A stretch of DNA of 60,075 bases from positions 1 through 60,075 of the IMG/VR virus record IMGVR_UViG_3300025133_000112. The stretch is one strand, 5' to 3'. A program made the position numbers and the translations under genes. Origin of the DNA: a virus. The notes under the pieces are model-generated. The model saw nothing but the letters and a program-made list of their open reading frames with translations. It did no database searches and was not told where the DNA came from. Shown here one piece after another: positions 15,306 to 59,966 of the stretch (position 1 is its first letter; the number at the start of each line of letters is the position of its first letter).

Positions 15306-17183
15306 TTAAGCTTTCTTTATTACTTCATCAAAGCTAACACCCTGTTTAACATTTACAAAATCAAGAATAATAAATTCAGCAGTCATAGTAGGCTTAACAT
15401 ATATAACTCCTCTAAATTCATTTCTTGAAATTACTTCAGGTGTATTTACTGTATCACTAACATCGACATAAAATTCAGTAATACCTTCTCTACCTTGAAC
15501 ATCTCGTAAATAAGGATCAACTAAACCTTTAAATTGACGTCTAGTGTATGGAGTATTTTTTTCACCCATAAAATATTTAGCTGCTAGAGCAATAGCCTTT
15601 TCAATTACAAGAAATAACCATCTGACGTCTAGTCTATTAAATGAACTTGGGGCTGCTAATAGAGTTTTTTGACCAAGAACAACATGACCATCACCAGGAC
15701 TTGTTATAATTGGATTAACATTAGCTTGATATAATTGATCTCTATAAGTTAATTTAGGATTAACTGCAAGCTTACTAGAATTCTTAACTAATCCTCTATT
15801 ATAAAATGCTGGAGCAAACCAAGGATCTCTTGTAAAGTGAGATTGAGCAGTAATACCAGCAACATCACCAGTCATAGGAACCCAACGATATTTATCTGCA
15901 TATGAATCATACTGATATTTCCAGTTACCATATAATGAAGCCCAGCTTGAACTTTTATTTAGAGTAGTAGTTGCATATGTTATCATATTAGATACTGCTG
16001 TAGCAACAGTTGAAACACCAACTACATCTGCTTTAGGCACATTTAATACGGCTATACAATCTTTTCTATCTTCAGTTAGATTATCTACAATATAAGCACC
16101 AGTAACAGCATCATTATTTGCACCATCTATAATCATTGATACATCAATCTCTTCTTTATTTTCGAAAAGATCATAACCAGTAGTTATATCACCAACAGCA
16201 GGATATCCATTTACTCCACCAGCAAGTACTGTTCCTATTTGAGAAGCAGGAGTATCAGTATTTGATGCTTTATCAAAAAGTAAAATATAATTTGAAGAAG
16301 TATTGATAAAATCTTCACAGTAATAATTTATATTATCAAGATTTTTTGCACCAGCAGTAAGAGAAACTGTCCATTTTTCTAGAATTGTATCAGAATCTGC
16401 ACCATCAATAACAGCAATTGCTACTTCACCAGCAAGAGGAGCATAATCAAATTCATCAACAAATGCAACTCCAGATATAATATCTTCTGTAGCAAAATCA
16501 TCTGCATTAGCAATAGCTACTTTTATATCAGATCCTCTTTCACCAGGATATTTAGCAAATATCTGCCATTTAGAATTATCAGCAGCAAATGTTGGTGTAT
16601 AATTTTCAACATCTTCATCATTACCAATATAATCACTAGCTGCAACTGGTGCACCATCAGCATCTACAATACCAGCCATTGTTGCTTCAGAGCTTGAAAA
16701 AGGATTAGCATTATCAACATCATTTGTATCAACAAATGTTCCTGTTGTGACTGATACTGTGACGTCATTTGTATCAATTGCAATTACTATACCTTCACCA
16801 TCATTACTATTAACACTATCACCTGTAATATCATCTCCAACTGAAAATGGAGCAGCATCATCAAGAGTTATAACAATATAATTTGCACTATCAATTTCTA
16901 AACCACCATTCTTTGCTGTAGCATCATCAACAGCTCTTACAACATATAAAGTACTAGCATATTGTAAAAAGTTCCATGCTGAATACCAATGTTCATATGT
17001 ATCATCATCTGGTTGATAAAATGTTGAAAGCAATTCGCTATCTTGTGTTATTAATGTTCTTTGAAAACAAGGACCCCATCTATATGCACCTACTACTCCT
17101 GTACTTGTAGTAGAAACCGCAGGTACAGATACAGAAAGGTCTTTTTCCTTTGTAACAACTTGTGGACTTAAATAAAAACCCAT
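15306..17183 (-). CDS. 18: Tail sheath protein gp18, with inserted virion domain
   Basis: 625 residues (T4 gp18 659). N-terminus MGFYLSPQVVTKEKDLS..VPAVSTTSTGVVGAYRWGPCF...I.....L...F fits the sheath pattern, and the conserved C-terminal domain is clear: TPYTRRQFKGLVDPYLRDVQ, then FYVDVSDTVNTPEVISRNE, FRGVIYVKPTMTAEFIILDF. Forms the contractile outer tail. Residues ~103-173 hold a copy of the ITGDS...GTFV domain also found in gp23, gp53 and the 130-residue protein at 59574. A late element lies 44 nt upstream; a bidirectional terminator follows. Confidence 0.95.
   Translation of the reverse strand: MGFYLSPQVVTKEKDLSVSVPAVSTTSTGVVGAYRWGPCFQRTLITQDSELLSTFYQPDDDTYEHWYSAWNFLQYASTLYVVRAVDDATAKNGGLEIDSANYIVITLDDAAPFSVGDDITGDSVNSNDGEGIVIAIDTNDVTVSVTTGTFVDTNDVDNANPFSSSEATMAGIVDADGAPVAASDYIGNDEDVENYTPTFAADNSKWQIFAKYPGERGSDIKVAIANADDFATEDIISGVAFVDEFDYAPLAGEVAIAVIDGADSDTILEKWTVSLTAGAKNLDNINYYCEDFINTSSNYILLFDKASNTDTPASQIGTVLAGGVNGYPAVGDITTGYDLFENKEEIDVSMIIDGANNDAVTGAYIVDNLTEDRKDCIAVLNVPKADVVGVSTVATAVSNMITYATTTLNKSSSWASLYGNWKYQYDSYADKYRWVPMTGDVAGITAQSHFTRDPWFAPAFYNRGLVKNSSKLAVNPKLTYRDQLYQANVNPIITSPGDGHVVLGQKTLLAAPSSFNRLDVRWLFLVIEKAIALAAKYFMGEKNTPYTRRQFKGLVDPYLRDVQGREGITEFYVDVSDTVNTPEVISRNEFRGVIYVKPTMTAEFIILDFVNVKQGVSFDEVIKKA
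16665..16877 (-). repeat. Shared virion domain, copy in sheath (most diverged)
   Basis: Encodes residues ~103-173 of gp18: FSVGDDITGDSVNSNDGEG, then V.V.VTTGTFVDTNDVDNANPF. Same order of motifs as the copies at 36276, 38380 and 59679. Confidence 0.8.
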
Positions 17184-17226
17184 ATGTTTATCTCCTTTAT
17201 GTTAAAATTTATTTTTTTATTCTTTT

Positions 17227-17244
17227 ATTTTAATTATTTACTTT
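17227..17244 (-). promoter_or_regulatory. Late-promoter element (exact copy)
   Basis: AAAGTAAATAATTAAAAT on the - strand, 44 nt before the sheath ATG. Confidence 0.75.
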
Positions 17245-17276
17245 ATTTATTGACAATTATTATAAAAATAAATAAA

Positions 17277-17312
17277 AATGGGTAGAAAGCGTTTCATAGC
17301 CACCTACCCATT
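17277..17312 (-). terminator. Intrinsic terminator after the 161-residue structural gene
   Basis: On the - strand AATGGGTAG (17312-17304) pairs with CTACCCATT (17285-17277), followed by TTTATTTATTT. Sits between the 17351 gene and the sheath promoter. Confidence 0.7.
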
Positions 17313-17350
17313 ATTAACTTAATCTCTAAATATTAAATATGTCTTAATTA

Positions 17351-17836
17351 TTAATCAGTATAATCTCCGGTAACAATTTCACCAACAGTCAATGCACCTG
17401 TCAATGGCTTTGTAACTGCAACAAATCCAGCACCTTGAGCAGCATCTGTAAGCTTTAGAACAGCAATACCAGAAGCGGCTGTTTGAATCATAAGATGAAG
17501 ATTAGCTGTGAGAGCTGTGAGAACTTCACCAGTAGAGGCTGTGATTGAATCAGGAGCAAGAGTACTTGCAAGACCTGCACCAGTTGAATCATCAGAAACT
17601 AGAAATTCAAGATTCCTGACACCTGTAAGGGTATTTCCATCAACATCCTGACATGTGATTGTGATTGTGATTGCATTTGTTGTACTAGCTGCAATTACAA
17701 TTGAAAACTGTGCTGGACCTTCTGTCATTGCCCTTACTGACTCAGTTACATTTACTAGTGCAGTAGAATTATCTATCTTGTTTGCACCAGATATATGAAG
17801 CTCCTGACATTTTATTACATCAAATAAATTTTCCAT
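17351..17836 (-). CDS. Ig-like virion surface protein (probable decoration protein)
   Basis: 161 residues, Thr/Ala/Val-rich all-beta protein. The block ITITITCQDVDGNTLTGVRNLEFLVSDDSTGAG...STGEVLTALTANLHLMIQTAASGIAVLKLTDA follows a pattern I recognise from many phage virion proteins (V..QC.DA.GN.L...R.V..WLSD...G..., then G..L......L.LTDA.G...L.V). In those phages the protein is a structural or head-decoration component. Codon use is regular. RBS AAGGAGAAA; ends in its own terminator, so it may be expressed at high level. Confidence 0.6.
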   Translation of the reverse strand: MENLFDVIKCQELHISGANKIDNSTALVNVTESVRAMTEGPAQFSIVIAASTTNAITITITCQDVDGNTLTGVRNLEFLVSDDSTGAGLASTLAPDSITASTGEVLTALTANLHLMIQTAASGIAVLKLTDAAQGAGFVAVTKPLTGALTVGEIVTGDYTD

Positions 17837-17862
17837 TTTTTTCTCCTTAAATTGTTTATTAT

Positions 17863-18135: not shown

Positions 18136-18150
18136 ATTATACTATCCTTA

Positions 18151-19089: not shown

Positions 19090-19102
19090 TGTTATTCCTA
19101 AA

Positions 19103-19129
19103 GGTGAGATACTAATTTAGTATCTCACC
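19103..19129 (-). terminator. Hairpin after the 19137 gene
   Basis: GGTGAGATACTA / TAGTATCTCACC, 12 bp with a 3-nt loop, then TTTAGG on the - strand. The short T-run suggests weak termination or mRNA 3' protection. Confidence 0.6.
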
Positions 19130-19652: not shown

Positions 19653-19670
19653 ATTTTAATTATTTACTTT
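19653..19670 (-). promoter_or_regulatory. Late-promoter element (exact copy)
   Basis: AAAGTAAATAATTAAAAT on the - strand; its first base coincides with the last base of the fibre gene stop, so it starts a new transcript at the fibre's 3' end. Confidence 0.75.
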
Positions 19671-22600
19671 TATATAACCTTAAGTTCGAAAAAAGGTTTT
19701 ATTGCTTCTGTTTTAAAGAAAGGTTTTAAAGTCTCAACTTTAAATCTTAATTTATTATGAATAGCTAATAGATCAACATTATCAATACTTGATGCAAATC
19801 TCATACTATCTGGAACTACATCTCCGCCAAAATCAAGTGTGATATTATCAATATTAGAATCATTAATAAGATCATTAATATCTAATATATGTTTCTGAGT
19901 TAATATAGTATTATCAATAGTACTTGATATATCTAAATCTTCAACTGATAATAAAGCAGCTGAACTTAATTCAGTATTATCAATATTAGAATCTACATCT
20001 AAATCATTTGAAACTAATGTATGCTTCTGAGTTACTGAAACATTATCAATATTAGAAGCATTAGTAAGATCTTGAGGAGCTAATGTATGTTTCTGGGTTA
20101 AATCGTTATTGTCTATATTAGAAGCAATATCTAAATCATTTACAGAAAGAGATATTGATGTTGTAATAATAACATTATCAATATTAGAATCTACATTTAA
20201 ATCATTTGCATCTAAGGTAAAATGCTCAACTAAATCTGTATTATCAATATTAGAATCTATATCTAAATCTTGAGCAACTAATGTATGCTTCTGAGTTATT
20301 GATACATTATCTATGTTAGATAAAATATCTAAATCATTTATATCTAATATTGTTGCAGCACTAAGTTCAATATTATCAATATTAGAATCTACATCTAAAT
20401 CATTTGAAACTAATGTATGCTTCTGAGTTAAATCAATATTGTCTATATTAGAAGCAATATCTAAACTATTAGAAACTAATGTATGCTTCTGAGTTACTGA
20501 AACATTATCAATATTGCTTGATATATCAAGATCATTTACATCTAAAATAGTTGCAGCAGTAAGTTCAACATTATCAATATTGGAAGCAATGTCTAAATCA
20601 TTTGAAACTAGTGTATGCTTCTGAGTTAAATCTGTATTATCAATATTGGAAGCAATGTCTAAACTATCAGAAACTAGTGTAAAATGTTGAACTAAATCAG
20701 TATTATCGATATTAGAAGCAATGTCTAAATCATTTACATCTAAAATAGTTGCAGCAGTAAGTTCAACATTATCAATATTGGAAGCAATGTCTAAATCATT
20801 TGAAACTAGTGTAAAATGCTCAACTAAATCAGTATTATCGATATTACTTGATATATCTAAATCATTTGAAACTAATGTATGTTTCTGAGTTACTGAAACA
20901 TTATCAATATTAGAATCTACATCTAAATCTTCAACAATTAATAAAGTTGCAGAACTAAGTTCAACATTATCAATATTAGAAGCAATATCTAAACTATTAG
21001 AAACTAATGTATGCTTCTGAGTTACTGAAACATTATCAATATTGCTTGATATATCTAAATCATTTGAAACTAGTGTATGCTTCTGAGTTAAATCTGTATT
21101 ATCAATATTAGAAGCATTAGTAAGATCATTTACAGATAATGTAAAATGCTCAACCAAATCAATATTATCAATATTGGAATCTACATCTAAATCATTTGAA
21201 ACTAATGTATGCTTCTGAGTTAAATCAATATTGTCTATATTTGAATTTACATCTAAATCATTTACAGATAATGTAAAATGCTCAACCAAATCAATATTAT
21301 CAATATTGGAATCTACATCTAAATCATTTGAAACTAATGTATGTTTCTGGGTTAAATCTGTATTATCAATATTGGAAGCAATGTCTAAATCTTGAACAAC
21401 TAATGTAACTGATGAACTAAGTTCAATATTATCAATATTAGAAGCACCAGTAAGATCTTGAGCAACTAATGTATGTTTCTGGGTTAAATTAGTATTATCA
21501 ATATTGCTTGATATATCTAAATCATTTGAAACTAATGTATGCTTCTGGGTTAAATCTGTATTATCAATATTAGAAGCAATATCTAAATCATTTGAAACTA
21601 ATGTATGCTTTTGAATTAAATTAGTATTGTCTATATTTGAAGCAATGTCTAAATCTTCAATAACTAGTGTATGCTTCTGAGTTAAATCAATATTATCAAT
21701 ATTTGAATTTACATCTAAATCATTTGAAACTAGTGTATTTTTCTGAGTTAAATCAATATTGTCTATATTTGAATTTACATCTAAATCTTGAACAACTAAT
21801 GTAACTGATGAACTTACTTCAACATTATCAATGTTGGATGCAATGTCTAAACTATTAGAAACTAGAGTATGTTTCTGGGTTAATAATAATTCATCCCATG
21901 TAATCTCTTTTATACTAGCATTAGAAATAGTACAGGATTCTGAATCACCTAAATGTATTTTATTTGAAACTGTTGCTGTAGCATCAGCAATAAAATATTG
22001 ATTATATGTACCAGATGATGTTATTGCATTTATAAATTGGGAATTTGCACCAGCAGTACCAGCAACTTCCCAATCAAGTGACCCAGTTACAGCTTCAAAT
22101 GTAACACTAGCAAGGTATACTTTAGCTGTTGTTATACTAACAGAATAATTATATATTACTCCTGTTGGTACACCTGAACTTGATAAAACTTGATAATCAC
22201 TACCATTTTTTGATGCTGTAACAGTACAATCTGTTGGAGCAAAAACAGTCCAATTATCTGCTATATCTCCAGTAACTGTACCTGTTCCACCAGATGTTCC
22301 AGAAGTACCAGATAAATCATTATTTGTTTGTAATTCTGTACCAAGATTAGGATCTCCTAAATGACTTGCTACATCTAAACTATCAGAAACTAATGTATGT
22401 TTCTGAGTTAATGTAGTATTATCAATATTAGAAGCACCAGTAAGATCTTGAACAACTAATAACGTACTTGTTACATCTTCAAAATCCCAATATCCACATT
22501 GGTGAGTAACTCTGATTGTTTCACCAGCTCCAGTTATAGCACGATTACCAATATTATCATATGGATTAGTACCAGTACCTTTTGCATCATCAATTTCCCA

Positions 22601-22969
22601 ATCTAATGATGTATCTGGATTTGTTGTGAAAATATCAAGATAATCCTGATATGATGATCCTGGGGTTCTTGTAGCTCCATTATATCTAGTCCCATTAACA
22701 TAAATTAAAGCTCTAGATTTACCACCAGCTCCAACATCTCTTGATCTATGACAAAGAGTAAAACTATTTATGCTTGTTGCACTAGTAAGAGATGGGAAAG
22801 GTGTTCCAAAATCATTATTTGCATTACCACCATCGTCATTCTGAATATACGTGGTATCATCATCAGGGGCACCATGAATATCATCTATTTCTGTATAGTG
22901 GAATGTACCAGTAGTTACATTCCACTGTATAGAATCATCAGAATTCGGATATATATATTCAATAGTCAT
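19670..22969 (-). CDS. Giant fibre protein built from ~30 tandem 22-residue repeats
   Basis: 1099 residues. Residues ~1-170 are a globular beta domain (Trp/Asp/Gly-rich). Residues ~165-200 hold the first diverged repeats. Residues ~205-355 are a second beta domain. Residues ~360-1060 are repeats of the form LTQKHTLVSNDLDIASNIDN + 2, with about 30 copies of SNIDN. The first half of the unit alternates among four types (LTQKHTL, ELSSSVTL/ELTAATIL, LVEHFTL, VSVTQKHTL). The C-terminal ~45 residues are distinct. Similar HTL....D...ADN repeats occur in other phage fibres, so an extended tail or head fibre is inferred. Strong DNA identity between units permits recombinational length change. Confidence 0.75.
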   Translation of the reverse strand: MTIEYIYPNSDDSIQWNVTTGTFHYTEIDDIHGAPDDDTTYIQNDDGGNANNDFGTPFPSLTSATSINSFTLCHRSRDVGAGGKSRALIYVNGTRYNGATRTPGSSYQDYLDIFTTNPDTSLDWEIDDAKGTGTNPYDNIGNRAITGAGETIRVTHQCGYWDFEDVTSTLLVVQDLTGASNIDNTTLTQKHTLVSDSLDVASHLGDPNLGTELQTNNDLSGTSGTSGGTGTVTGDIADNWTVFAPTDCTVTASKNGSDYQVLSSSGVPTGVIYNYSVSITTAKVYLASVTFEAVTGSLDWEVAGTAGANSQFINAITSSGTYNQYFIADATATVSNKIHLGDSESCTISNASIKEITWDELLLTQKHTLVSNSLDIASNIDNVEVSSSVTLVVQDLDVNSNIDNIDLTQKNTLVSNDLDVNSNIDNIDLTQKHTLVIEDLDIASNIDNTNLIQKHTLVSNDLDIASNIDNTDLTQKHTLVSNDLDISSNIDNTNLTQKHTLVAQDLTGASNIDNIELSSSVTLVVQDLDIASNIDNTDLTQKHTLVSNDLDVDSNIDNIDLVEHFTLSVNDLDVNSNIDNIDLTQKHTLVSNDLDVDSNIDNIDLVEHFTLSVNDLTNASNIDNTDLTQKHTLVSNDLDISSNIDNVSVTQKHTLVSNSLDIASNIDNVELSSATLLIVEDLDVDSNIDNVSVTQKHTLVSNDLDISSNIDNTDLVEHFTLVSNDLDIASNIDNVELTAATILDVNDLDIASNIDNTDLVQHFTLVSDSLDIASNIDNTDLTQKHTLVSNDLDIASNIDNVELTAATILDVNDLDISSNIDNVSVTQKHTLVSNSLDIASNIDNIDLTQKHTLVSNDLDVDSNIDNIELSAATILDINDLDILSNIDNVSITQKHTLVAQDLDIDSNIDNTDLVEHFTLDANDLNVDSNIDNVIITTSISLSVNDLDIASNIDNNDLTQKHTLAPQDLTNASNIDNVSVTQKHTLVSNDLDVDSNIDNTELSSAALLSVEDLDISSTIDNTILTQKHILDINDLINDSNIDNITLDFGGDVVPDSMRFASSIDNVDLLAIHNKLRFKVETLKPFFKTEAIKPFFELKVI
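19776..21890 (-). repeat. 66-bp coding repeat array in the fibre gene
   Basis: About 30 imperfect 66-bp units with several near-identical higher-order blocks, for example 20737-20820 repeating much of 20530-20620. Confidence 0.85.
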
Positions 22970-25889: not shown

Positions 25890-28800
25890 CTAATTAACTT
25901 TCCATATTTTAAGATCAATATAAATTTCCTTGATTCCCCTAGATGCTGCTTTGCCTCTTTCAGTACCAACAGAGTCAACAGCAACATTAGTTTGAAGCTC
26001 TATTGTGGCAGGAGCTGTCAGTGTAAACCGACCTGATAATGGTATAGGTGTATTTTCATCTGCCCCAGTAGACTGATTGATGCTAATACTTGGAACATAA
26101 AAGAGTCCATCTCCTGTGTTTAAAGCAAGAGGGTTAAAAGCTAAAATACCTGTTGACCCGTCTGCAACAAACAGTCTTGTTCCATCTCCCCAGACAGCAA
26201 CAGCAGTGTCTGTATCGTAAGAATCTATAGTACCAGAAGCTAGATCATTAGGATCAAAAGCAAGGATGCCATTGGTTCCATCTGCAACATAAAGGGTTGT
26301 TCCATCTCCCCAGACACCTTGAGCAGAACCGTCTGTATTGTAAGAATCAATAATACCAGAAGCTAGATCATTAGGATCAAAAGCAAGGATACCATTGGTG
26401 GTCCAATCTGTAACAAACAGTCTTGTTCCATCTCCCCAGACATCAAAACTGGTGCCTGTTGTATTGTAAGAATCAATAATACCAGAAGCTAGATCATTGG
26501 GATCAAAAGCAAGGATGCCACTGGCTCTGTTGGTAACAAACAGTCTTGTTCCATCTCCCCAGACATTTTCAGCAGTATCTGATGTATTGTAAGAATCTAT
26601 AATACCAGAAGCTAGATCATTAGGATCAAAAGCTAAAATACCTGTGGACGAGTTTGCAACATAAAGGGTTGTTCCATCTCCCCAGACACCTTGAGCAGAA
26701 TCTAATGTATCGTAAGAATCTATAGTACCAGAAGCTAGATCATTGGGATCAAAAGCAAGGATACCATTGGTTCCATCTGCAACAAACAGTCTTGTTCCAT
26801 CTCCCCAGACACCTTTAGCGTTGCCTGTTGTATTATAAGAATCTATATCACCAGAAGCTAGATCATTGGGATCAAAAGCTAAAATACCTGTTGACCCGTC
26901 TGCAACAAACAGTCTTGTTCCATCTCCCCAGACACGTACAACACCACCTGATGTATTGTAAGAATCTATCAAGTCAAAAAGTGGTTGTATTCGACTCTGA
27001 CTTGACCCAGACTCATTAACAACATTTGTACTATCAATATGATATTCACCGGCTGGCAAAATCATCTGATTACTTGATAAAGATGCATCTGTAATTTCAT
27101 TTGTAATCTCTGTATTTAGAGTTGCGGTATTCCATGTGTCCGCAGTATAGGCACCACCATTAACCCCGCTATTCTGTTGGTGTTGAATGTGTAGCAGTGA
27201 CCCAAAACTAAGATTACCATCAATAGTACCAATCGCTCCGGCACTACTTATTGACATTATTTTGCCATCGGAAATTATATTTCCAGATACGGCTGGATTG
27301 AAGTTGATCTCACCAGATGAGAAATCACCCTCTATTAATCTTCCACCAGATCCAGCAACATCTGATTCGAGAATGAATTTATGATCGTCGGTAACTGTGT
27401 CGAGGTCTGCTTTGTAGCCAATTACTACATTAAATTCTGCGCTTGTAGCATATGCTCCTGAGTAGTCTCCAAGAAAGGTATTACCTGCACCAGTACATTT
27501 CCACCCAGACACTCCACCAATCATAACATTTCCAATTTGATCAGTAAGTTCAAGCCCTGTTGATGCACCAATTAAAATATTGCGATCACCTGTATTAATA
27601 TTAGATCCGGATAAATATCCAATAGATATATTATGGTCACCACCAGTCATATCATATCCAGCCCTATAGCCCATGGAGATATTGAAACCGCCAGTAAGTA
27701 TTCCAAGACCGTTTGCTTCGTAACCTATGGCGATATTATCAGATCCTGTAGTTGTATAATATAGACTTAAAGCTCCTACTCCTACGTTGCGAGATCCAGA
27801 GAGGGCAATACCCCCATCTGAAGATCCGGAATTGTCTCCCAATAAAGTATTAGAATCACCAGTAACGCGATATGCGGCATTATAACCCAATGCAGAATTC
27901 CTTGATCCTGTCAGGAGGTAACCACTGCCCTTTCCAATAACGGAATTATATTCACCAGTTTTATTTGTATATAATGTTTGATACCCAACTGATGTATTGC
28001 CGTCCCCTTCAATATCTGCGGATGACTCTCCTTGGGATTCATACCCTATCGCCGTACAGAAATCAGCGAGTGTGTATGCCGCACCTGCTTTATACCCAAC
28101 ACAGGTAATACCTTCTCCTGTCATACCCTCCGATTGTGACGATCCCGCCGATTGATGCCCTATTCCTACAGCACCATCAGACTCGCAATAGTTTCCAGCC
28201 TCCGCACCCATCATAACTGAGTAATTGCCTGTACCTTCTCCATAGGCTTCCCTTCCAATAATACAACAATGGCTCAATCCTGTAGCTGTGGAGTCTGCTG
28301 CTACATACTGACCTATCAAAACGTTACTTGTCCCTGAAGTTATATTTACACCGCACTCTGAGCCGATCATTACATTTTTAATACCTGCTGCAACAGAAGA
28401 CCCCGTACTATATCCTAAAAATGTATTACCCAATCCAGTAGCAAGGGTACCAGCTTTATATCCAATAAAAGTATTTTCATGACCTGTTGAATTTGTTTTA
28501 CCCGCTTGCCATCCCAAATACGTGCAGCATTGTCCAGATGTGTGTAGTAATCCAGATTGATGCCCAACTGCTACAAGCCCCGTAGAGATTGTAGAAACAG
28601 CACCAGCAGAATTACCAATACAGACTTGTTGACCACCAGTATTATTAAGTCCTGCACCTCTTCCGATTATAACATTTTCGCCACTACTACTTGAATTTTC
28701 TCCAGCCCTATGGCCTATTATTGTACTTTCAAAATCACTACCACTATTCTGCCCAGCATTATATCCAACATATACATTGAAATCACCAATTGTATTTTCT

Positions 28801-30362
28801 CCTGCTCCAGATCCAATATATGTCACTTCATCCTGGGATACTGTAGTAACACCTACTGCACCAGCTCTATATCCAACAAGAGTACAATTATCTGCTGAAA
28901 TATTAGCTGCACCAGTATTTGACCCCATAAATGTATTATTAACACCACTTGTATTTAATAAAGCTGCATTAATACCCATAAATGTATTATTAGTTCCTAT
29001 GGTATTAGCTTTACCAGCATTAGTTCCAATTGCTGTTATTGTTGCAGATGTTGAATATCCAGCATTAAAACCCATTATTGTTGAACTTGAACATGATGCA
29101 TTTACAGCGGCAAAGGGACCAAATATTGAATTTTGAGTACCTGAATTAGATATACCTGAAAATATTTCTGAACCATAAAGAGCATTACTTGATCCTGTTG
29201 CTTGATTTCCACACCATTCACCAACATATGTATTATATCCAGCCCCTACATTACTAGCACCAGCACTATCACCAATAAAAGTGTTATATTCACCAGTACT
29301 AATTAAACCAGCTAAACTACCCATAAAGGTATTTCCATCTGAACTAATATTAGCTTTTCCAGTATTATATCCAATAAATGTATTACTAGCACCATCTACA
29401 TTTACTAATCCTGTTTCATATCCTAAGAATGTATTTTTAGTCCCTGAAGTATTAGCTTTTCCTGAAGTATATCCAATAAAGACAGATCCATTCGCAATAT
29501 TATTATACCCAGCCTGGAACCCAATAAGAATAGATGTTCCACAATTGGCATTATATCCAGCAGAATATCCAAGCACACAGTTATATCCACCACCAGTAGT
29601 AGTATTAAAGGTTTCACCACCGACTATAGTATTTTGACCTCCAGTACATCCATATCCTGCCCACTCTCCGATGTAGGTATTATATGAACCACTTACATTT
29701 GAACGACCAGCAGAATTACCAATATTAGTGTTATACTCACCACTTCCTTGTAATAATCCTGCATTATTACCAACAAAGGTATGACCAACATTTGTATTGC
29801 TTAATCCTGAATTAAGTCCAATTATTACATTATCTGAATCAGAAAAATTATTATCATCATTAATATCTAAGAATATAATATCATCATATAAATATATTCC
29901 TATCTTTGTATTTGTTCTTGTTAAAGTAGTTGCTCCTGCAGTGGATGCATCTAAATATAATGTATCTCCTATAACAGCAGTTGCAACTGCTTTTGTTACT
30001 AATCCACTACAAAAAACTGTTGATTTGGTAACATCTGCTATTCCAATAAATCTTTGAGCTGATGTACCATTAGCAATAGCCTTTTCATATTCACTACTTG
30101 TTGTATTATAATAAACTAAATCTCCATCAGAAACTGTACCTTCAAATGTAACATCTAATATAAGATTTTGTCCCATAAAAGTATGAGTTCCGTCTATAAA
30201 AATACCATTACTTTCAAGTTCATCTCTTAACTTTGCTGTTCTATTAACTAATTCTTGTGCTTGTTGATTAGCTTGACCACCAGCTCCACCAACTACATAA
30301 TCAGCTAATTCTAACTGATATATTCCTGTTTCCCATACACTTGATTCTGTTAAATCTGTCAT
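25890..30362 (-). CDS. Giant tail fibre: beta-helix repeat shaft plus seven-bladed propeller-like tip
   Basis: 1490 residues. Residues 1-~180 are an attachment domain (TGIYQLELADYVVGGAGGQANQQ...). Residues ~185-980 consist of dozens of 16-24-residue repeats of the type NTFIGYNTGKANISSDGNTF.G..AG, expected to stack as a beta-helix shaft. Residues ~1130-1420 carry seven tandem ~41-residue repeats (VWGDGTRLFVADG..GILAFDPNDLASG.IDSYNT), the number needed for a closed seven-bladed propeller. The end (IKEIYIDLKIWKVN) is typical of fibre C-termini. Probably the main host-recognition fibre; next to lysis genes and downstream of baseplate genes. Confidence 0.8.
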   Translation of the reverse strand: MTDLTESSVWETGIYQLELADYVVGGAGGQANQQAQELVNRTAKLRDELESNGIFIDGTHTFMGQNLILDVTFEGTVSDGDLVYYNTTSSEYEKAIANGTSAQRFIGIADVTKSTVFCSGLVTKAVATAVIGDTLYLDASTAGATTLTRTNTKIGIYLYDDIIFLDINDDNNFSDSDNVIIGLNSGLSNTNVGHTFVGNNAGLLQGSGEYNTNIGNSAGRSNVSGSYNTYIGEWAGYGCTGGQNTIVGGETFNTTTGGGYNCVLGYSAGYNANCGTSILIGFQAGYNNIANGSVFIGYTSGKANTSGTKNTFLGYETGLVNVDGASNTFIGYNTGKANISSDGNTFMGSLAGLISTGEYNTFIGDSAGASNVGAGYNTYVGEWCGNQATGSSNALYGSEIFSGISNSGTQNSIFGPFAAVNASCSSSTIMGFNAGYSTSATITAIGTNAGKANTIGTNNTFMGINAALLNTSGVNNTFMGSNTGAANISADNCTLVGYRAGAVGVTTVSQDEVTYIGSGAGENTIGDFNVYVGYNAGQNSGSDFESTIIGHRAGENSSSSGENVIIGRGAGLNNTGGQQVCIGNSAGAVSTISTGLVAVGHQSGLLHTSGQCCTYLGWQAGKTNSTGHENTFIGYKAGTLATGLGNTFLGYSTGSSVAAGIKNVMIGSECGVNITSGTSNVLIGQYVAADSTATGLSHCCIIGREAYGEGTGNYSVMMGAEAGNYCESDGAVGIGHQSAGSSQSEGMTGEGITCVGYKAGAAYTLADFCTAIGYESQGESSADIEGDGNTSVGYQTLYTNKTGEYNSVIGKGSGYLLTGSRNSALGYNAAYRVTGDSNTLLGDNSGSSDGGIALSGSRNVGVGALSLYYTTTGSDNIAIGYEANGLGILTGGFNISMGYRAGYDMTGGDHNISIGYLSGSNINTGDRNILIGASTGLELTDQIGNVMIGGVSGWKCTGAGNTFLGDYSGAYATSAEFNVVIGYKADLDTVTDDHKFILESDVAGSGGRLIEGDFSSGEINFNPAVSGNIISDGKIMSISSAGAIGTIDGNLSFGSLLHIQHQQNSGVNGGAYTADTWNTATLNTEITNEITDASLSSNQMILPAGEYHIDSTNVVNESGSSQSRIQPLFDLIDSYNTSGGVVRVWGDGTRLFVADGSTGILAFDPNDLASGDIDSYNTTGNAKGVWGDGTRLFVADGTNGILAFDPNDLASGTIDSYDTLDSAQGVWGDGTTLYVANSSTGILAFDPNDLASGIIDSYNTSDTAENVWGDGTRLFVTNRASGILAFDPNDLASGIIDSYNTTGTSFDVWGDGTRLFVTDWTTNGILAFDPNDLASGIIDSYNTDGSAQGVWGDGTTLYVADGTNGILAFDPNDLASGTIDSYDTDTAVAVWGDGTRLFVADGSTGILAFNPLALNTGDGLFYVPSISINQSTGADENTPIPLSGRFTLTAPATIELQTNVAVDSVGTERGKAASRGIKEIYIDLKIWKVN
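26110..26985 (-). repeat. Seven ~123-bp propeller repeats in the fibre gene
   Basis: Seven copies with long identical DNA stretches (for example ACAAACAGTCTTGTTCCATC recurs). High identity implies recent expansion or gene conversion. Confidence 0.85.
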
Positions 30363-31544: not shown

Positions 31545-33221
31545 TTATACAAGATTTAATGTGATATCATTAAATTTTAAATATGTTTCTTTTTCTAATG
31601 TTAAATTTGTTGTATCTGTAAGAGTAAATCCTATATCATAAGTATCACCTTCAGATAGTCCACCAAATGTTGTATCTAAAACAATAAAACCTGTTGTATA
31701 ATTAATACTTCCAACTGTTCCAGAATTCCATTCTATATTTCCAGCACCATCATCACTTATAGCAAAACCATTTATTGTTCCTGATATACTACTAGTATTA
31801 ACTGCATTATTTAATCTAATTACATTATAATCATCTGCTGAATGCCTAACAGTTACATTTGTTGTGTAAGTAATATAAGTATAAATAACTGTTTGTAGAT
31901 CATCTACAAACCCAATTAAATCAGATAAATAAAATGATTTTTTATATCCTTCTGATAAATCTAAATAAGCATTTGTTAGTGCTTCTATATCTTCAGAAAT
32001 TCCAACTAATGATTGATAACTAACATTTACTGTAGGACTAACATTAAAAAACATTGGATGTAGAAATTTAAAAAATAAATTTATATATTTATATATTGAA
32101 AGAAAATCTTCAATATCTGACCATTCTCCACTAGTTATATAATCTAAATCTGTTTTAAGCATAGAGAAATAAACATATCCTAAATCTCTTGTTGATCCAG
32201 TTTCTATAATATGATCATCATCTCCAGTATCTATATATTCTTTTTCACCACCCCAAGCGATTGCACTATCAAGAGTATCATAATCAGACCATCTTTTTAT
32301 TAGATTATTATAATCTCCTTCTGTAACTGCTCTTCCTTGAGTAGTATAAAATAATGGAGCTCTTGATTGAATACCTTCATTTACTTCTTCATCTACACCA
32401 TTAGCTAATGAATCAGATGTTGAAATATCTAAATATTCAATATTTGTTGCATCAGGATCAGTATTTGTGATTGTTCCAGTAGTTCCATTATATGTAATAC
32501 CATTTGTATAAATATATTCTATTCTTATTCTATCTCCATCAGGAGGTATTGTGAATAATTGACCGTCATCAAATTTAATAATAAAATTTTCAAAATATTC
32601 AATATAATAAACTTCTTCATCAAATTCAAAGTCATCACTATTTACAGACTTCCATGGAGTAGTACTTTCTATCCATCCACCTACACCATCAGACGCATCT
32701 ACATATACATCAAAATAATCATTATCTACATTTGTTGTATTACTTAATGTGAATCTTTGAAATGCCGTACCATCTGATGTAAATGTTTCTGTTGTAGGTA
32801 TTCCTTCATATAAATCAACAACATAAACACTACCATCATTAATAGTAATATCTTCAACATTTGTTAATAATAATGATCCCATATTCCATGTAGAATATTT
32901 AGGTATGATTATTGTATATGTGTCATTTCTTTGTAAAGATACAGAAATATAAGGAGCAGATTTTCTTGCTGGAAGATAATTTAGCATATGAGAAAGTTTC
33001 TTAATATTAGAATCAATCTCTGCATTTTTAAGGGTTAAATCATTCACTGTCTGATTAAGATAAAATGCCGGTGTTTGTGTAGCAAATGCAAGTACATCTA
33101 ATAGGCTAGAAGCCGCTGAGCCTTCAAAATTATAATCAGTGAATTCTGTTGAAGACTCAAAAAATTCTTGTAAATTAACTTTAATCTCTTCTAAGTCTAA
33201 ATCGTAATATTCATTAGCCAT
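31545..33221 (-). CDS. 6: Baseplate wedge protein gp6 (baseplate J family)
   Basis: 558 residues (T4 gp6 660). N-terminus DLDLEEIKVNLQEFFESSTEFTDYNFEGSAASSLLDVLAFATQTPAFYLNQTVNDLTLKNAEI is the typical gp6/gpJ start. RAVTEGDYNNLIKRW (residues ~299-313) is the conserved core motif. The last ~100 residues add a beta domain. gp6 dimers make the iris-like inner ring of the baseplate that opens during contraction. Downstream of gp25, in the conserved gp25-gp6 order. Confidence 0.92.
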   Translation of the reverse strand: MANEYYDLDLEEIKVNLQEFFESSTEFTDYNFEGSAASSLLDVLAFATQTPAFYLNQTVNDLTLKNAEIDSNIKKLSHMLNYLPARKSAPYISVSLQRNDTYTIIIPKYSTWNMGSLLLTNVEDITINDGSVYVVDLYEGIPTTETFTSDGTAFQRFTLSNTTNVDNDYFDVYVDASDGVGGWIESTTPWKSVNSDDFEFDEEVYYIEYFENFIIKFDDGQLFTIPPDGDRIRIEYIYTNGITYNGTTGTITNTDPDATNIEYLDISTSDSLANGVDEEVNEGIQSRAPLFYTTQGRAVTEGDYNNLIKRWSDYDTLDSAIAWGGEKEYIDTGDDDHIIETGSTRDLGYVYFSMLKTDLDYITSGEWSDIEDFLSIYKYINLFFKFLHPMFFNVSPTVNVSYQSLVGISEDIEALTNAYLDLSEGYKKSFYLSDLIGFVDDLQTVIYTYITYTTNVTVRHSADDYNVIRLNNAVNTSSISGTINGFAISDDGAGNIEWNSGTVGSINYTTGFIVLDTTFGGLSEGDTYDIGFTLTDTTNLTLEKETYLKFNDITLNLV

Positions 33222-36146: not shown

Positions 36147-36776
36147 TTATGATTGTCTCACTATATCTTTAAGTATTTTTTGTATAAATTCTGGTTTTAT
36201 TATTCTTATTACTCGTTTTTCATCATTATCATCAGTTAATAAATCATAATTTGTTATATATGATGCTTCACTTAATACTTGAGTTAAAGATGAAATTGTT
36301 GTTTTATCAGAAGCATATGTTGAAGCATTATCTACTCCATTTGAAGCAACAAATTCTCCAACAGAAATATTGACTACTACATCATTTCCTGATATACTAA
36401 CTATTGTACCTCTACCTGAATTTCCATTATCACCATCACCGCTTATATATCCATTAACTGAAAAATCATCAACACTAGATAAAGTTAAAGTTGTTGTAGT
36501 ACTTAGATCTTGTGCAAATTTTTGTACCATATCTTCACTTAACGGCATATCAAATAAAACATCTCTAAATCCATTTAAAATTGCTATTAACCACCATATA
36601 GATGCATCATTATATAAATAATCACATATTGATTCTAGAGATTCACCTTCTTGAATTCTATATGTTGATATATAGGATGTATCTATATCAGTAGCAAAAT
36701 AATATTTCCAATTTAAATTTCGCCCTATTGTTCCATCTTCAAATGTGTATAGTGGTAATAAATTAAAATATTTCAT
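36147..36776 (-). CDS. 53: Baseplate wedge protein gp53, with inserted virion domain
   Basis: 209 residues (T4 gp53 196). The N-terminal half, including TYRIQEGESLESICDYLYNDASIWWLIAILNGFRDVLFDMPLS, is the LysM-like gp53 pattern (Y.V..Gd..e.IA...Yg.....W.I...N...dP...wPl). Residues ~94-167 then carry the mobile virion domain (FSVNGYISGDGDNGNSGRG... FVASNGVDNASTYASDKTTI), and gp53 resumes to the end. Without the insert the protein would be only ~135 residues. In T4 gp53 clamps adjacent wedges. Confidence 0.85.
   Translation of the reverse strand: MKYFNLLPLYTFEDGTIGRNLNWKYYFATDIDTSYISTYRIQEGESLESICDYLYNDASIWWLIAILNGFRDVLFDMPLSEDMVQKFAQDLSTTTTLTLSSVDDFSVNGYISGDGDNGNSGRGTIVSISGNDVVVNISVGEFVASNGVDNASTYASDKTTISSLTQVLSEASYITNYDLLTDDNDEKRVIRIIKPEFIQKILKDIVRQS
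36276..36497 (-). repeat. Shared virion domain, copy in gp53
   Basis: Encodes residues ~94-167. Motif order SVNGYISGDGDNGNS, NDVVVNISVGEF, SNGVDNASTYASDKTTI matches the other copies. Confidence 0.85.
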
Positions 36777-37608: not shown

Positions 37609-38961
37609 TTAGGCAGGAAGATTTGCTACTGAGATTGCCTTGTAGTAATTTTCTGCGCCATAAACATTATCAGTAAGAGCATAGCGAGTACTGAAGAATG
37701 TTCTTGGTTGATTATCCTCTTCACCGTAACCCTTACGAACTTGAAGTGGAATATATGGAGAGTAGAAAACACCAGCATCTATCTCTGTCGGACCTTTATA
37801 GCCAAGATAAATTGTATCATCAGTAGCATAGAGGTCAACAAAAACTTTCATACCCATTGCAGTACCAGCATAAACAGTCTGAACAGGATCAACTCCATTT
37901 GTATCAAGCTTACCTGAAGATTCAAATACTGAAAGAACAGCAGGAGAAACAATCATAAATGTTGCTTGACCACGCTTATTAGCAACAGCAACTTGACGTT
38001 TTACTCTTGAAGTCATAGTCATAAGATTTTGATACTTCTCAAGTTCCCAACGACCATCAGCAGATGTATAATCAAAAGCTGTAGTAGAACCGATATTAGC
38101 GATTAGATAATTAATCATTTCACGATTCATTTCCATTATAACTTCATCAGAAGCAACTGTACTTAGAAGAGCTTCAGCATTCATATTATGAATTGCTTGT
38201 AAATCTTCTTCAAGTTCATTAGTCCATTTTGCTTTTAACTTTCTAGTCTTAGCAGTTGCAGTAGCAGTTTCAATCTCAAAACCAACTTCCTTCATGTTAG
38301 TTGAAAGGGCCTCACCAGTAGCAGTAGCATAAGATCCACTATAATTACTGAAAATCACGTTAAATAGTGCTTCATTCTCATATACGGCAGAAATTGTGGT
38401 ATCATCTGCATTATATGGATTAGCATTATCAACACCATTTGCAACAACAAATGTTCCAGAAACAACTTCTACAAGAAGATTATTACCTTCTTTGTGGCGA
38501 ACAACACCAACACCATCATTACCATTATCACTATCACCAGTGATATCACCACCAACTGTATAATTGGTTCCAGATGCAACAGTAAGAATAACTGAAGTTG
38601 CTCTTGTGAGAGAGTTTACAGAATCATTCTGGAATGTTGCTCTAAGTGCAAAAATCAGACCAGATGGTCCGCTTAGAGGCTGAGTACCAAAAATCTGAGG
38701 ACCAATCATTGCAGGCATAACACGTCTTAACATTGGAATTAGAATTGGGCTATAATTACCAATTGCAGAAGCCATAGTTGATTCATCAAGACTTTCATCT
38801 TTAGTACCAGCATATTTTTCAATGTTCTCAAAAAGTTGAGCATTCATTGCATAATCTTTTTCTTCTATCTTAGGACAAGCAGAGACATAATCACTCCATT
38901 TTCCTTTACCTTCCATAAGCGGTATCCACTTATCGATTATTGCTTTTTCTACCTTAATCAT
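37609..38961 (-). CDS. 23: Major capsid protein gp23, with inserted virion domain
   Basis: 450 residues (T4 gp23 521). Recognisable T4 blocks: MASAIGNYSPILIPMLRRVMPAMIGPQIFGTQPLSGPSGLIFALRA, GEALSTNMKEVGFEIE, AKWTNELEEDLQAIHNMNAEA, and the end TFFSTRYALTDNVYGAENYYKAI. The propeptide of ~60 residues ends DESLDE|S, compatible with the LxE consensus of gp21. Residues ~122-194 hold the mobile domain (YTVGGDITGDSDNGNDGVG ... SGTFVVANGVDNANPYNADDTTI), near where T4 gp23 has its own surface insertion. Five hexameric copies would therefore display it over the head. Confidence 0.95.
   Translation of the reverse strand: MIKVEKAIIDKWIPLMEGKGKWSDYVSACPKIEEKDYAMNAQLFENIEKYAGTKDESLDESTMASAIGNYSPILIPMLRRVMPAMIGPQIFGTQPLSGPSGLIFALRATFQNDSVNSLTRATSVILTVASGTNYTVGGDITGDSDNGNDGVGVVRHKEGNNLLVEVVSGTFVVANGVDNANPYNADDTTISAVYENEALFNVIFSNYSGSYATATGEALSTNMKEVGFEIETATATAKTRKLKAKWTNELEEDLQAIHNMNAEALLSTVASDEVIMEMNREMINYLIANIGSTTAFDYTSADGRWELEKYQNLMTMTSRVKRQVAVANKRGQATFMIVSPAVLSVFESSGKLDTNGVDPVQTVYAGTAMGMKVFVDLYATDDTIYLGYKGPTEIDAGVFYSPYIPLQVRKGYGEEDNQPRTFFSTRYALTDNVYGAENYYKAISVANLPA
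38380..38598 (-). repeat. Shared virion domain, copy in major capsid protein
   Basis: Encodes residues ~122-194 of gp23. At the DNA level very close to the free copy at 59679-59894 (GGTGATAGTGATAATGG versus GGTGATAGCGATAATGG), so the two are recently related. Confidence 0.88.
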
Positions 38962-42284: not shown

Positions 42285-43919
42285 TTATAAAAAAGCTAAA
42301 ATCTTATATTTAACATCAGTTGTGCATGTAACATATACATTTGTTGAATCATGGGTACCTTCTGTAATTACAAATCCACCACCTGAATTGTCATCAGTAA
42401 CAGATACTAAAACCCCTGTTGGTGTACCTGATAGCCCATGAGCTATTGTTTGTTGAGATGCAGTTCCAGTTTGTTCAGTTGAAACAAATCTATCAGAAAC
42501 TAAAGCATATTGTGGATGATCATCATCATCTAATCCTGATAATGAACCATGATCATTTACAGATCCAGCAGTTCCACCACCAAATGAATATCTGAAATCA
42601 ATATAATCATCACCAGTATCAGTAGTTCTAATTCTTGATTTTACATCATTTGTATATCCATTAGATGTTTGGTATATAACTGATGCTATAGCTAAAAATT
42701 CTTGAAATGGCATTCCGGTGGTAATAAGATTATTAATTTCTGTTGCTGCTGCCTCTCTAGCTTGATTTAGTCTTGTAAAATCACCTTGACCTTGAATAGA
42801 TATAATTGGTTGATTTGAATCATTAGTTGCAAATAAATGACATAAACCAAAATCATTATTAGTTATTTCTGTTTGTTGCCAAGTTGTCCCTGTCCATTCA
42901 TTATATGCTAATCTAGAACCACCGCCAACAAAATTTTTAACTGGGAAATTTGTTGCAGTATCTTTTCTCCAATACCCAAATGTACCAGTTTTATAAAATA
43001 CTGGAATTTGTGCTGGAGATGCTACCCCAGAAAAATCAAATTTGATATCTTCATCCCATATAATACCCGTACCATATCCAAATTGAGCAGAAGCATCAAG
43101 ATTTCCATCACCATCAGAAACAATACTGACTAGACCTAAACCTTCTTGAAATCTTGTTCCTACAGTCTCATGAAGATATTGATGAGTCATAGGGTCCATT
43201 GTTAGCCCATGTCTCTCATCTGCTACCAATATTAAAGTATTAGCATCTGCATCCCAATAACCATTAGATATATATGCATATTTTAATATTATTGATTCTA
43301 CAAATGTTTGTGTTGATTGTAAAACACCATCTGCATCAAAATAGAAATGCCACATTCCTTCAGTGTCAGTTATTGTTGCTGTTTGTGCTTCATCAAATGT
43401 ATATAAAATTCTATCACTATATACATCAAAATCAGCTCCAGAAGGTGTAATACTAAAGGTTAGTGTTCCATCATCAAAGCTAATAACAGAATCATCTCTG
43501 TTTGGAAAACCTGAAGGAACACTTACATTATCATCTTGAGCCAAAAATATATCAATTTCAGTTAGAGTATAGTATCTATAATCGTGATCATGGCCATATG
43601 AATTATCAATTTTATCCCATGTAGAACCATTATAAACTAGCCAATCAGCAACAAGATAATCAACTGCTCCTATTGTACCTTCAACAGAACAGATATAATA
43701 ATCACCTTGATTAGGTCCAACAGGGTATGAACCTGTGGAACAATCCCAAACACCTTTATAGTATACTGCACCTGTTACTGCATCAGGAAGTTGAGCTATT
43801 GGTACCTGTGCATTTTCATCTAATCCACAAAGACCATTAGCAATATTTTTAAGAGAATTTATTTGACCTAAAGTTAAACCATCTCTAAATATATCATACC
43901 TATTTTTGCTTTTAATCAT
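42285..43919 (-). CDS. Fibre-like virion protein upstream of the portal
   Basis: 544 residues. N-terminus with LTLGQINSLKNIANGLCGLDENAQVPIAQLPDAV and VYYKGVWDCSTGSYPVGPNQGDYYICS is the typical start of phage side-fibre/receptor-binding shafts. Residues ~460-475 contain GSLSGLDDDDHPQYALVS, a linker common in fibre proteins. The last ~60 residues form an Ig/knob-like beta domain (QQTIAHGLSGTPTGVLVSV...). No catalytic motif. Placement between a 120-residue beta protein and the portal suggests a head or collar fibre, but a tail fibre is equally possible. Confidence 0.6.
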   Translation of the reverse strand: MIKSKNRYDIFRDGLTLGQINSLKNIANGLCGLDENAQVPIAQLPDAVTGAVYYKGVWDCSTGSYPVGPNQGDYYICSVEGTIGAVDYLVADWLVYNGSTWDKIDNSYGHDHDYRYYTLTEIDIFLAQDDNVSVPSGFPNRDDSVISFDDGTLTFSITPSGADFDVYSDRILYTFDEAQTATITDTEGMWHFYFDADGVLQSTQTFVESIILKYAYISNGYWDADANTLILVADERHGLTMDPMTHQYLHETVGTRFQEGLGLVSIVSDGDGNLDASAQFGYGTGIIWDEDIKFDFSGVASPAQIPVFYKTGTFGYWRKDTATNFPVKNFVGGGSRLAYNEWTGTTWQQTEITNNDFGLCHLFATNDSNQPIISIQGQGDFTRLNQAREAAATEINNLITTGMPFQEFLAIASVIYQTSNGYTNDVKSRIRTTDTGDDYIDFRYSFGGGTAGSVNDHGSLSGLDDDDHPQYALVSDRFVSTEQTGTASQQTIAHGLSGTPTGVLVSVTDDNSGGGFVITEGTHDSTNVYVTCTTDVKYKILAFL

Positions 43920-44562: not shown

Positions 44563-44593
44563 TTTATTCTCCATTAGAATTATTTTATGTTTA

Positions 44594-56609: not shown

Positions 56610-56633
56610 TAAATAAAATTGCTGGAGAATGAA

Positions 56634-58502: not shown

Positions 58503-58513
58503 ATAATTATAAT
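58496..58513 (+). promoter_or_regulatory. Late-promoter-like element (one mismatch)
   Basis: AAAGTAAATAATTATAAT, 17 of 18 identical to the consensus, spanning the uvsW stop; 12 nt before the next gene. Confidence 0.65.
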
Positions 58514-58524
58514 AAGATTATAAT

Positions 58525-58890: not shown

Positions 58891-58891
58891 T

Positions 58892-59335
58892 ATGAGCAGA
58901 AAGAAGCCTCAATATAGTCAAGGCTTATATAAACCAATAAATCCACATAAATATAATGGTAATGCAAATAATATCATATATAGAAGTGGATTAGAATTAA
59001 AGTATTTTAGATATGTTGATTTAAATTCAAGTATATTAAAATGGGGTTCAGAAACAGTAATTGTACCATATATTTCAATTGATGGTAGACCTCATAGATA
59101 TTTTCTTGATTTATGGCTTAAAACAAAATGCAAAAATGGAGCAATAAAAGAATATATATGTGAAATTAAGCCTAAATGTTTTGTTGAACAACCAAAACCT
59201 CAAAAAAGAAAAACAAAGAAATGGATGGGAAAATATAGAACTTGGTTAGTAAATCAAGCTAAATGGGATGCAGCAACAAAATTTGCTATACAAAAAGGTT
59301 GGGAGTTTAAAATCTTGACTGATCATGATATATAA
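58892..59335 (+). CDS. 4: Head completion protein gp4
   Basis: 147 residues (T4 gp4 150). Matches T4 pattern: KYNGNANNIIYRSGLELKYFRYVDLNSSILKWGSETVIVPYISIDGRPHRYFLDLWL, then YICEIKPKCFVEQP and a closing WLVNQAKWDAATKFAIQKGWEFKILTDHDI. The series E (SGLELK) - D (YFLDLWL) - E.K (CEIKPK) is the PD-(D/E)xK/TnsA-like active site of this family. gp4 acts with gp50 to finish DNA-filled heads. RBS AGAGG overlapping the previous stop. Confidence 0.9.
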   Translation: MSRKKPQYSQGLYKPINPHKYNGNANNIIYRSGLELKYFRYVDLNSSILKWGSETVIVPYISIDGRPHRYFLDLWLKTKCKNGAIKEYICEIKPKCFVEQPKPQKRKTKKWMGKYRTWLVNQAKWDAATKFAIQKGWEFKILTDHDI

Positions 59336-59344
59336 AGGTATAAA

Positions 59345-59560
59345 ATGAAATCTTTTAAAGAGTATTTAATAGAATTTTTTAATGAAGGTAATCAAATTCC
59401 TCTTTTGAGAAGAAAAGGAATTAATGGATCAAAAGTATTTTGCCCTAAATGTGGTAAAACATTTGTGTATTATAAACAAAAAACTCAATGTAGGCATTGT
59501 AAATCAAATATTGTTTCTACTATGCAAACTAACGATAAATTAGATAATGAATTAAATTAG
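59345..59560 (+). CDS. Small zinc-ribbon protein with capsid-targeting-type leader
   Basis: 71 residues. Leader MKSFKEYLIEFFNEG matches the T4 internal-protein type (MKxFxEFLxE) and the leaders at 6869 and 7498, with LIE as a possible gp21 site. The body carries KVFCPKCGKTFVYYKQKTQCRHCKSNI, two CxxC pairs. A packaged DNA- or RNA-polymerase-binding ribbon is inferred. Directly after gp4, in the late head-completion block. Confidence 0.55.
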   Translation: MKSFKEYLIEFFNEGNQIPLLRRKGINGSKVFCPKCGKTFVYYKQKTQCRHCKSNIVSTMQTNDKLDNELN

Positions 59561-59573
59561 GAGATAATATAAG

Positions 59574-59966
59574 ATGACAACAACACCAATAGCACAAATT
59601 TTACTAAGTGATGGTACTTTAGTAGATGCAATAGATATTGATACAGCAGGTTCACAGATTACAATAACCTATCTTGAATTGATCCTTACTGTTACAGCAA
59701 GCACAAATTTTTCAGTAGGTACATCTATAACAGGTGATAGCGATAATGGAAATGATGGTGTAGGTGAGGTAATGGCTAAAGATGGTAATGATTTGACAGT
59801 AAGGCTCATTTCAGGAACATTTGTTTCTGGTAATGGGGTTGATAATGTTAGTCCTTATAGTGCAGATGATACCACAATAACGGCTGTAGCTCAAAATGTT
59901 AAGGTTTATAGGACTAGTTTTAATATAAATGAAATCATAGGGACATATTACAATACTGGCGAATAA
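59574..59966 (+). CDS. Stand-alone carrier of the shared virion domain
   Basis: 130 residues. Residues ~36-107 are a copy of the domain present in gp18, gp53 and gp23 (NFSVGTSITGDSDNGNDGVG, DGNDLTVRLISGTFVSGNGVDNVSPYSADDTTI). N-terminal 35 residues (MTTTPIAQILLSDGTLVDAI...) and C-terminal ~23 residues are unrelated. Good RBS (AGGAGATAAT). It may be a free decoration protein, or a source or reservoir of the domain. Confidence 0.7.
   Translation: MTTTPIAQILLSDGTLVDAIDIDTAGSQITITYLELILTVTASTNFSVGTSITGDSDNGNDGVGEVMAKDGNDLTVRLISGTFVSGNGVDNVSPYSADDTTITAVAQNVKVYRTSFNINEIIGTYYNTGE
59679..59894 (+). repeat. Shared virion domain, free-standing copy
   Basis: Encodes residues ~36-107 of the protein at 59574. 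Nearly identical at DNA level to part of 38380-38598. Confidence 0.88.

Follow-up and report, generated by a model that had tools for sequence, protein, structure and literature searches.

A shared domain in four genes of the window

The window analysed here is a linear stretch of 60,075 nucleotides (nt) with a GC content of 28%, positions 1–60,075 of the IMG/VR virus record IMGVR_UViG_3300025133_000112, and its source is a T4-like myovirus. It encodes four homologous domains of ~73 residues, in gp18, gp23, gp53 and a small free-standing protein. The tail sheath protein gp18 (625 amino acids, aa; 15306..17183, minus strand; PHROG_23 tail sheath, E = 7e-100, and Pfam sheath domains) carries the domain at residues ~101–174 (16662..16883, minus strand), the position of domain I in T4 gp18. 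In the major capsid protein gp23 (450 aa; 37609..38961, minus strand; Pfam Gp23, E = 9e-84) it occupies residues ~122–195 (38377..38598, minus strand), and in the baseplate wedge protein gp53 (209 aa; 36147..36776, minus strand; Pfam Phage_gp53, E = 2e-6; PHROG_232, E = 2e-16) residues ~93–166 (36279..36500, minus strand). The fourth copy (residues ~36–108; 59679..59897, plus strand) makes up most of a 130-aa protein (59574..59966, plus strand), whose gene is preceded by an AGGAG ribosome-binding site.

An earlier note, made from the letters of this DNA alone, had proposed that these four proteins share one domain, and three approaches agree with it. A tblastn search of the 60-kb record with the window gp23 as a query gives exactly three further hits, at the sites of the other copies (E = 1e-27, 2e-15 and 1e-14); all six pairwise local scores (154–263) exceed each of 300 shuffles (means 39–48, maxima 67–84); and a profile of the four sequences, run over all six frames of the window, recovers the four copies. 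This search yielded no fifth copy in the window, the next match having E = 0.013; that candidate, a 91-aa open reading frame (ORF) at 44299–44574, was unconfirmed. The aa identity among all four copies is 38–65%. Of these, the gp23 and free copies are nearest to each other (65% aa, 71% nt), in line with what the earlier note had observed at the DNA level. The gp18 copy and the gp53 copy are at similar distances (38–46%), so that the sheath copy is not clearly the most diverged one, for which the note had taken it.

Family and predicted fold

Searches of the family members against Pfam, PHROG and PDB gave no family name for the domain; single members have weak PHROG matches to baseplate, tail-fibre, virion-structural and head protein families. 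The family comprises 23 members with the core F.VG..I.G...G.G.V.......V.V..SGTF, where the G, I, G and V columns are almost invariant (profiles A3 and A4), and none of the members (23/23) matches an Ig, Big, PKD or FN3 family in Pfam or PHROG.

With the 23 members as the alignment input, AlphaFold2 yielded a model of the free protein with a predicted local distance difference test score (pLDDT) of 93–97 across the domain and with strands at residues 28–40, 51–54, 63–70, 73–80, 88–90 and 100–117. In the model, these strands make up a small beta barrel. In the gp23 model, the domain has the same pattern of strands (pLDDT ~82), and the structure-prediction check that had been suggested for the copies came out, for the free and gp23 ones, in favour of a common predicted pattern.

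A Foldseek search against PDB gave no convincing fold match: those to V-ATPase and pyruvate kinase (E > 0.08) are generic barrels and were rejected, and neither an Ig domain nor the T4 gp18 structure is among the top 50 PDB fold matches of the domain model. Among predicted viral structures, the matches are gp53 of uncultured phages (E = 7.6e-4 and 0.03), Campylobacter phage gp23 (0.01), a cyanophage sheath (0.018) and wedge initiators (0.05–0.11), that is, the same virion protein classes that host the domain in the window. The broader profile A4 matches Campylobacter phage gp23, cyanophage P-HM1 gp7, other very long ORFs and pf16 gp124, partly by construction, as some of the matched sequences went into building A4; the T4 genome has no match to A4 anywhere. 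A sequence match to a TDP-glucose dehydratase in PDB (E = 3e-4) covers 44 residues within a larger enzyme and was judged to be chance, and PF22764 E217_Gp32 (E = 0.02) and phrog_27395 (0.03) fall below any cut-off.

The free protein has no match among 50,697 named phages. The scans for the domain were pattern-based and mainly reach close relatives; the one over 84,980 bacterial and archaeal genomes, with tight patterns only, gave no confirmed case, and a further one with a mixed alignment gave no new gene context. As a separate observation, A4 also matches Escherichia phage Bas95, where barrel-like domains belonging to the broader family follow one another in three tandem copies (L057, 2938–3861) within a hypothetical protein of 759 aa that adjoins a tail gene; being cultured, this phage could be used for functional tests of such barrels.

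Insertion sites in gp23 and gp18

By alignment, the gp23 domain sits between the FALRA and VGF motifs, in the interval of the T4 insertion domain, to which it has no recognisable sequence similarity. Every related gp23 found that spans this region carries the domain, down to 44% identity, and a diverged version occupies this position in Campylobacter phages (IBB_35, F379, NCTC12673). Hence the gp23 copy is old and, on these alignments, ancestral in its gene; it is not a private insert, which the earlier note's description would suggest.

In gp18, an alignment with T4 gp18 places the domain within sheath domain II, flanked by the VRAVD..AKN and YPGE(L/R)G motifs. In T4 this site holds domain I, an exposed beta barrel that binds the retracted tail fibres and the baseplate and makes no inter-subunit contact (PMC3004832). 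The claim that T4 gp18, gp23 and gp53 do not have the segment thus stands for the sequence family, given the lack of an A4 match in T4, and needs to be qualified for the sheath, where a beta-barrel domain is already present. Comparison of the family with T4-like domain I by hhalign gives a probability of 2% with profile A3 and 27% (P = 7e-4) with the broader A4, and 30 column-shuffled controls reach at most 1.6%; the sequence similarity to domain I is only suggestive. The sheaths of L045, Va1 and CP30A have barrel-like segments at this site in the alignment, and no domain is found there in the sheath relatives L036–L043 and L046. The relatives considered here and below are contig fragments, and an absence applies to the gene seen rather than to the whole genome.

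These sites bear on one alternative, in which the domain is a structural brace stabilising capsid, sheath and baseplate; its copies would contact their neighbours, and loops would be shared between copies through mutual binding or binding of a common cementing partner, e.g. the free protein. The universal presence of the domain among the gp23 relatives found fits such a role, as do the existence of a free copy, the contacts of T4 gp18 domain I with baseplate and retracted fibres (PMC3004832), and the T4 gp23 insertion domain, which stabilises the capsid and, like that of phi29, bridges neighbouring molecules (PMC3185693). The lack of inter-subunit contacts in T4 gp18 domain I argues the other way, and with the distribution and exchange described below we consider a brace rather unlikely.

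Filled and empty sites among relatives

The closest comparisons involve a sister phage, B, to which we assign the contigs L040, L008 and L015 on the basis of shared samples and similar background identity, and a separate phage C (L006). The gp18 site is filled in the window and empty in L040, whose sheath is 70% identical. The gp53 domain is present in the window and in L063/L064, and absent from phage B (L065/L008) and from more distant gp53s. In the case of gp6 the site is filled in phage B (L015), L033 and L011, and empty in L013/L014, in distant phages and in the window, where it aligns to 32409..32417 (minus strand). In addition, two copies occur within a 1021-aa protein of L010, an unrelated non-T4 phage whose own head protein belongs to phrog_371. 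Overall, the domain is hosted by gp18, gp23, gp53, gp6, the free protein and this 1021-aa protein, and the set of filled genes differs lineage by lineage.

Given the empty sites in close relatives, the insertions in gp18, gp53 and sister-phage gp6 are recent and separate, and the domain is a mobile module that moves between virion genes. This bears out the suggestion in the earlier note that it spreads between such genes. The possibility that the segment is ancestral in all homologues, which was named there as a counter-argument, holds for gp23 and does not hold for gp18 or gp53.

That gp18, gp53 and gp6 carry the domain in some close relatives and lack it in others shows that it is dispensable in these proteins, contrary to what a brace would require. 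This pattern also bears on the alternative that the domain is ancestral to all host proteins and has been repeatedly lost, the likeness of its loops being due to convergence on one ligand. The age of the gp23 copies, the diverged barrel-like segments at the gp18 site of T4, Va1, CP30A and L045, and the weak resemblance between the T4 domain I family and this one (hhalign P = 7e-4, probability 27%) all fit repeated loss. On the other hand, gp53 and gp6 of all outgroups found have no domain, copies in different genes have recent codon usage in common, and the DNA-identical tract of 57 nt described below cannot be convergence; this alternative was already disfavoured, and we regard it as improbable.

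Finally, the domain might be a selfish coding element, an in-frame, near-neutral and tolerated insert without a common function, for which conversion would be a by-product of recombination. Both the different sets of filled genes in sister phages and the occurrence in the unrelated phage L010 would be expected of it. However, all copies found reside in virion-type proteins or in a small free protein, the domain junctions show neither splice signals nor a duplicated target, and the loops are conserved beside a diverging core, unlike in neutral inserts; such an element thus seems very improbable. An intein or another self-splicing element was rejected as well: the insert is ~70 aa long, as against the roughly 130 aa or more of a splicing domain, no C-junction has a terminal HN-[CST], and a free protein exists.

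Exchange between phages

Codons ~91–225 of the window gp23 (38287..38691, minus strand) form a recombination block with 88–100% nt identity to phage B (95–100% over most of it), compared with mostly 70–85% outside. Within the domain, identity to phage B is 97% nt and 95% at third codon positions, the latter being ~60% outside. The inverse holds for the closer relative L013, which is 67–83% identical to the window in most of the block and mostly 90–100% outside. Similarly, the free gene is 97% aa and 96% nt identical (third positions 91%) to its counterpart in phage C, whereas the neighbours are at 58–73% nt.

Over the ORFs compared with phages B and C, third-position identity is 42–66% with four exceptions: the free gene (91%), gp23 (67% overall, owing to the block), a 544-aa protein (93%) and a 161-aa ORF (91%). 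The latter two are the only other genes exchanged with phage B. The 544-aa protein (42285..43919, minus strand) is tail/fibre-like (PHROG minor tail, 2e-10), its third-position identity to phage B being calculated over 368 aa; the 161-aa ORF (17351..17836, minus strand) lies upstream of gp18, belongs to no known family and has 94% aa identity to L040 against a background of ~73% nt. These contrasts show a recent swap of the gp23 block, and likewise of the free gene, between related phages; the exchanged items are mainly virion parts likely to face outward. The joint exchange of the gp23 block and the free gene with a tail/fibre-like protein is expected of outward-facing parts, and is a further point against a brace.

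Loops, core and gene conversion

In a tree of the copies, these cluster by gene (gp23 84/83, gp53 97/94, free 99/99). Hence wholesale homogenisation of the domain within the window genome is excluded, and the phylogeny that had been proposed as a check of within-genome conversion gives a negative answer for the domain as a whole. The loops tell otherwise. The core strands of the window gp23 copy are 80% (137/171) identical to other gp23 and 30% (52/171) to copies in other genes, whereas for its loops the respective values are 43% (129/297) and 70% (209/297). The contrast has the same direction in 18/18 comparisons (P = 4e-4, which is indicative, as the sequences are non-independent). By its affinities, the window gp23 domain is a chimera, the core tracking its gene and the loops tracking the copies in other genes. 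The two loops common to copies in different genes are GDSDNGNDGxG (loop 1) and NGVDNAxPYxADDTTI (loop 2).

In phage B, gp23 and gp6 have an exactly identical tract of 57 nt over loop 1 (L015, 10406–10462 and 16342–16398), although the flanks of this tract within the domain are at 18/33 (55%) upstream and 72/129 (56%) downstream. None of 20,000 codon-resampled controls reached such a tract, and the result survives Bonferroni correction over the 90 screened pairs. The gp6 genes of L033 and L011 have 7–8 differences from it. Because 57 nt fit within a short read, the tract is unlikely to be a product of misassembly, and these comparisons identify it as a short gene conversion tract between gp23 and gp6 of the sister phage. 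In the window itself, there is a modest excess of same codons between the gp18 and free, gp23 and gp18, and gp23 and free copies (P = 0.01–0.03, uncorrected, among 90 pairs). Thus, gene conversion, as had been suggested, is seen in the sister-phage tract and in the split between loops and core, and it is weakly indicated in the window genome.

Neighbouring genes and other features

The free ORF is preceded by a homologue of gp4 (PHROG head closure, 1e-48) and a 71-aa zinc-ribbon ORF. A 16-nt motif, AAGTAAATAATTAAAA, which contains TAAATA, occurs between 12834 and 58883 of the window in 10 exact copies, and in 15 copies with at most two mismatches versus 1.6 expected (0/100 shuffles). It is found upstream of gp18, of the gp54–gp53 group and of the gene before gp4. 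The motif looks like a putative late promoter of the phage, and its placement is consistent with late expression of gp18, the gp53 group and the gp4-region genes.

Small ORFs near the free gene, seven in L006 (3590–9199) and one in the window (59345–59560), start with MK(S/D/T)F(K/T)..L.E, which we take to resemble the capsid-targeting leader of T4 internal head proteins; the free domain protein has no such leader. Elsewhere in the window, a 1099-aa ORF of no clear family (19670–22969) has ~30 tandem repeats of 66 nt (22 residues) at 19778–21871, and a 1490-aa virion/tail-spike-like ORF (25890–30362) contains 123-nt and dispersed 51-nt repeats (26090–26951 and 27934–29769). A 50-nt direct repeat with 98% identity (7387–7436 and 7794–7843, 407 nt apart) lies where neighbouring small ORFs of the minus strand start or end.

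A proposed role of the domain

We consider it probable that the domain is a small autonomous beta barrel serving as an exchangeable, exposed binding knob of the virion, with a loop patch homogenised by recombination. Loops 1 and 2 flank the same beta hairpin (strands 3–4) and hence, judging by topology, would be at the same end of the barrel. The two loops, both rich in Asp, Asn and Gly, may form one ligand-binding patch, for which the barrel would be a scaffold. The ligand could be a glycan from the host or the environment, a component of the envelope, or a fibre or decoration partner of the phage itself, and a metal ion might be involved. Present on the head, the tail and the baseplate alike, one such patch would provide many weak contacts aiding adsorption, recombination would let phages update it on several proteins, and the free protein could be a decoration or a donor copy. 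Adhesion or glycan binding is suggested by what is exchanged, and exposure on head, tail and baseplate by the T4 positions. A more specific version, which we find possible and put forward with less assurance, is that one binding specificity is kept on head, sheath, baseplate and free protein, only loops being copied between virion genes (as short tracts) and blocks between phages; the result would be a concerted adhesive coat of the whole virion, the free gene providing decoration or a donor.

Several points weigh against the binding knob. Exposure is deduced from the T4 positions, and at least the gp23 copy could be structural, given the capsid-stabilising T4 insertion domain (PMC3185693). 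Beyond the domain, the gp23 model is of low quality (mean pLDDT 55.6). The gp6 copy with the conversion tract is on one contig only, and conversion is clear for one gene pair only; in the window genome itself, with copies 38–65% identical, recent conversion is weakly indicated. Besides, the common loops could come from selection rather than conversion.

Comparison with known systems

The closest parallel is the Ig-like domains (Fraser et al. 2006, as cited in PMC9230969 and PMC13370021): in many phages this one fold recurs in proteins of the head, the tail and the baseplate, it is exchanged horizontally, assembly can do without it, and weak carbohydrate binding has been proposed for it. The domain described here is likewise promiscuous across virion protein classes and unrelated phages, but it is a predicted six-stranded barrel with no Ig/Big match and an internal insertion at known surface sites. 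By analogy, it can be regarded as a non-Ig analogue of the promiscuous Ig-like phage domains. In open PMC papers, to which the literature search was limited, neither a description of loop-only homogenisation between genes for Ig-like domains nor a report of the same phenomenon was found.

Domain I of T4 gp18 (residues 98–188) shares the sheath insertion site and, with its six-stranded barrel plus helix, resembles the barrel predicted here; it points away from the tail, and many sheaths lack it. It differs in its size of about 90 residues and in having weak profile similarity only to the family. The chitin-binding-like insertion domain of T4 gp23 and the BIG2-like domain of phi29 are likewise extra domains on an HK97-fold capsid protein, the former in the same gp23 interval; both differ from the family in sequence. 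We know of no occurrence of these insertion domains in sheath or baseplate proteins.

The 'additional domains' of sheaths (PMC9230969) are, as here, modular beta-rich extras away from the tube, and phage domain mosaicism (PMC10684548) involves, as here, ongoing shuffling in host-facing proteins. Both sources, in their excerpted text, deal with one protein class or with pairwise domain sharing, whereas here the sharing involves four components of one phage and exchange at the level of loops. The Campylobacter phage gp23 insert, P-HM1 gp7, pf16 gp124 and Bas95_0019 belong to the same broad sequence family, mostly in virion-type proteins, and NCTC12673 gp23 matches the domain also by fold; they are without the two signature loops, and sharing between head, sheath and baseplate in one phage was not seen among them.

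Since the work on Ig-like domains, phage particles are known to carry promiscuous domains, whose function is still debated. To this our results would add loop-level conversion between virion genes of different roles, as well as a natural domain-swap experiment, with the same barrel in different gene sets of sister phages and matched empty sites. That the loops are homogenised and the scaffold is not suggests that the functional surface lies in the loops; through them and the free protein the adhesion hypothesis becomes directly testable. The results also hint at places in capsid, sheath and baseplate proteins where modules can be inserted.

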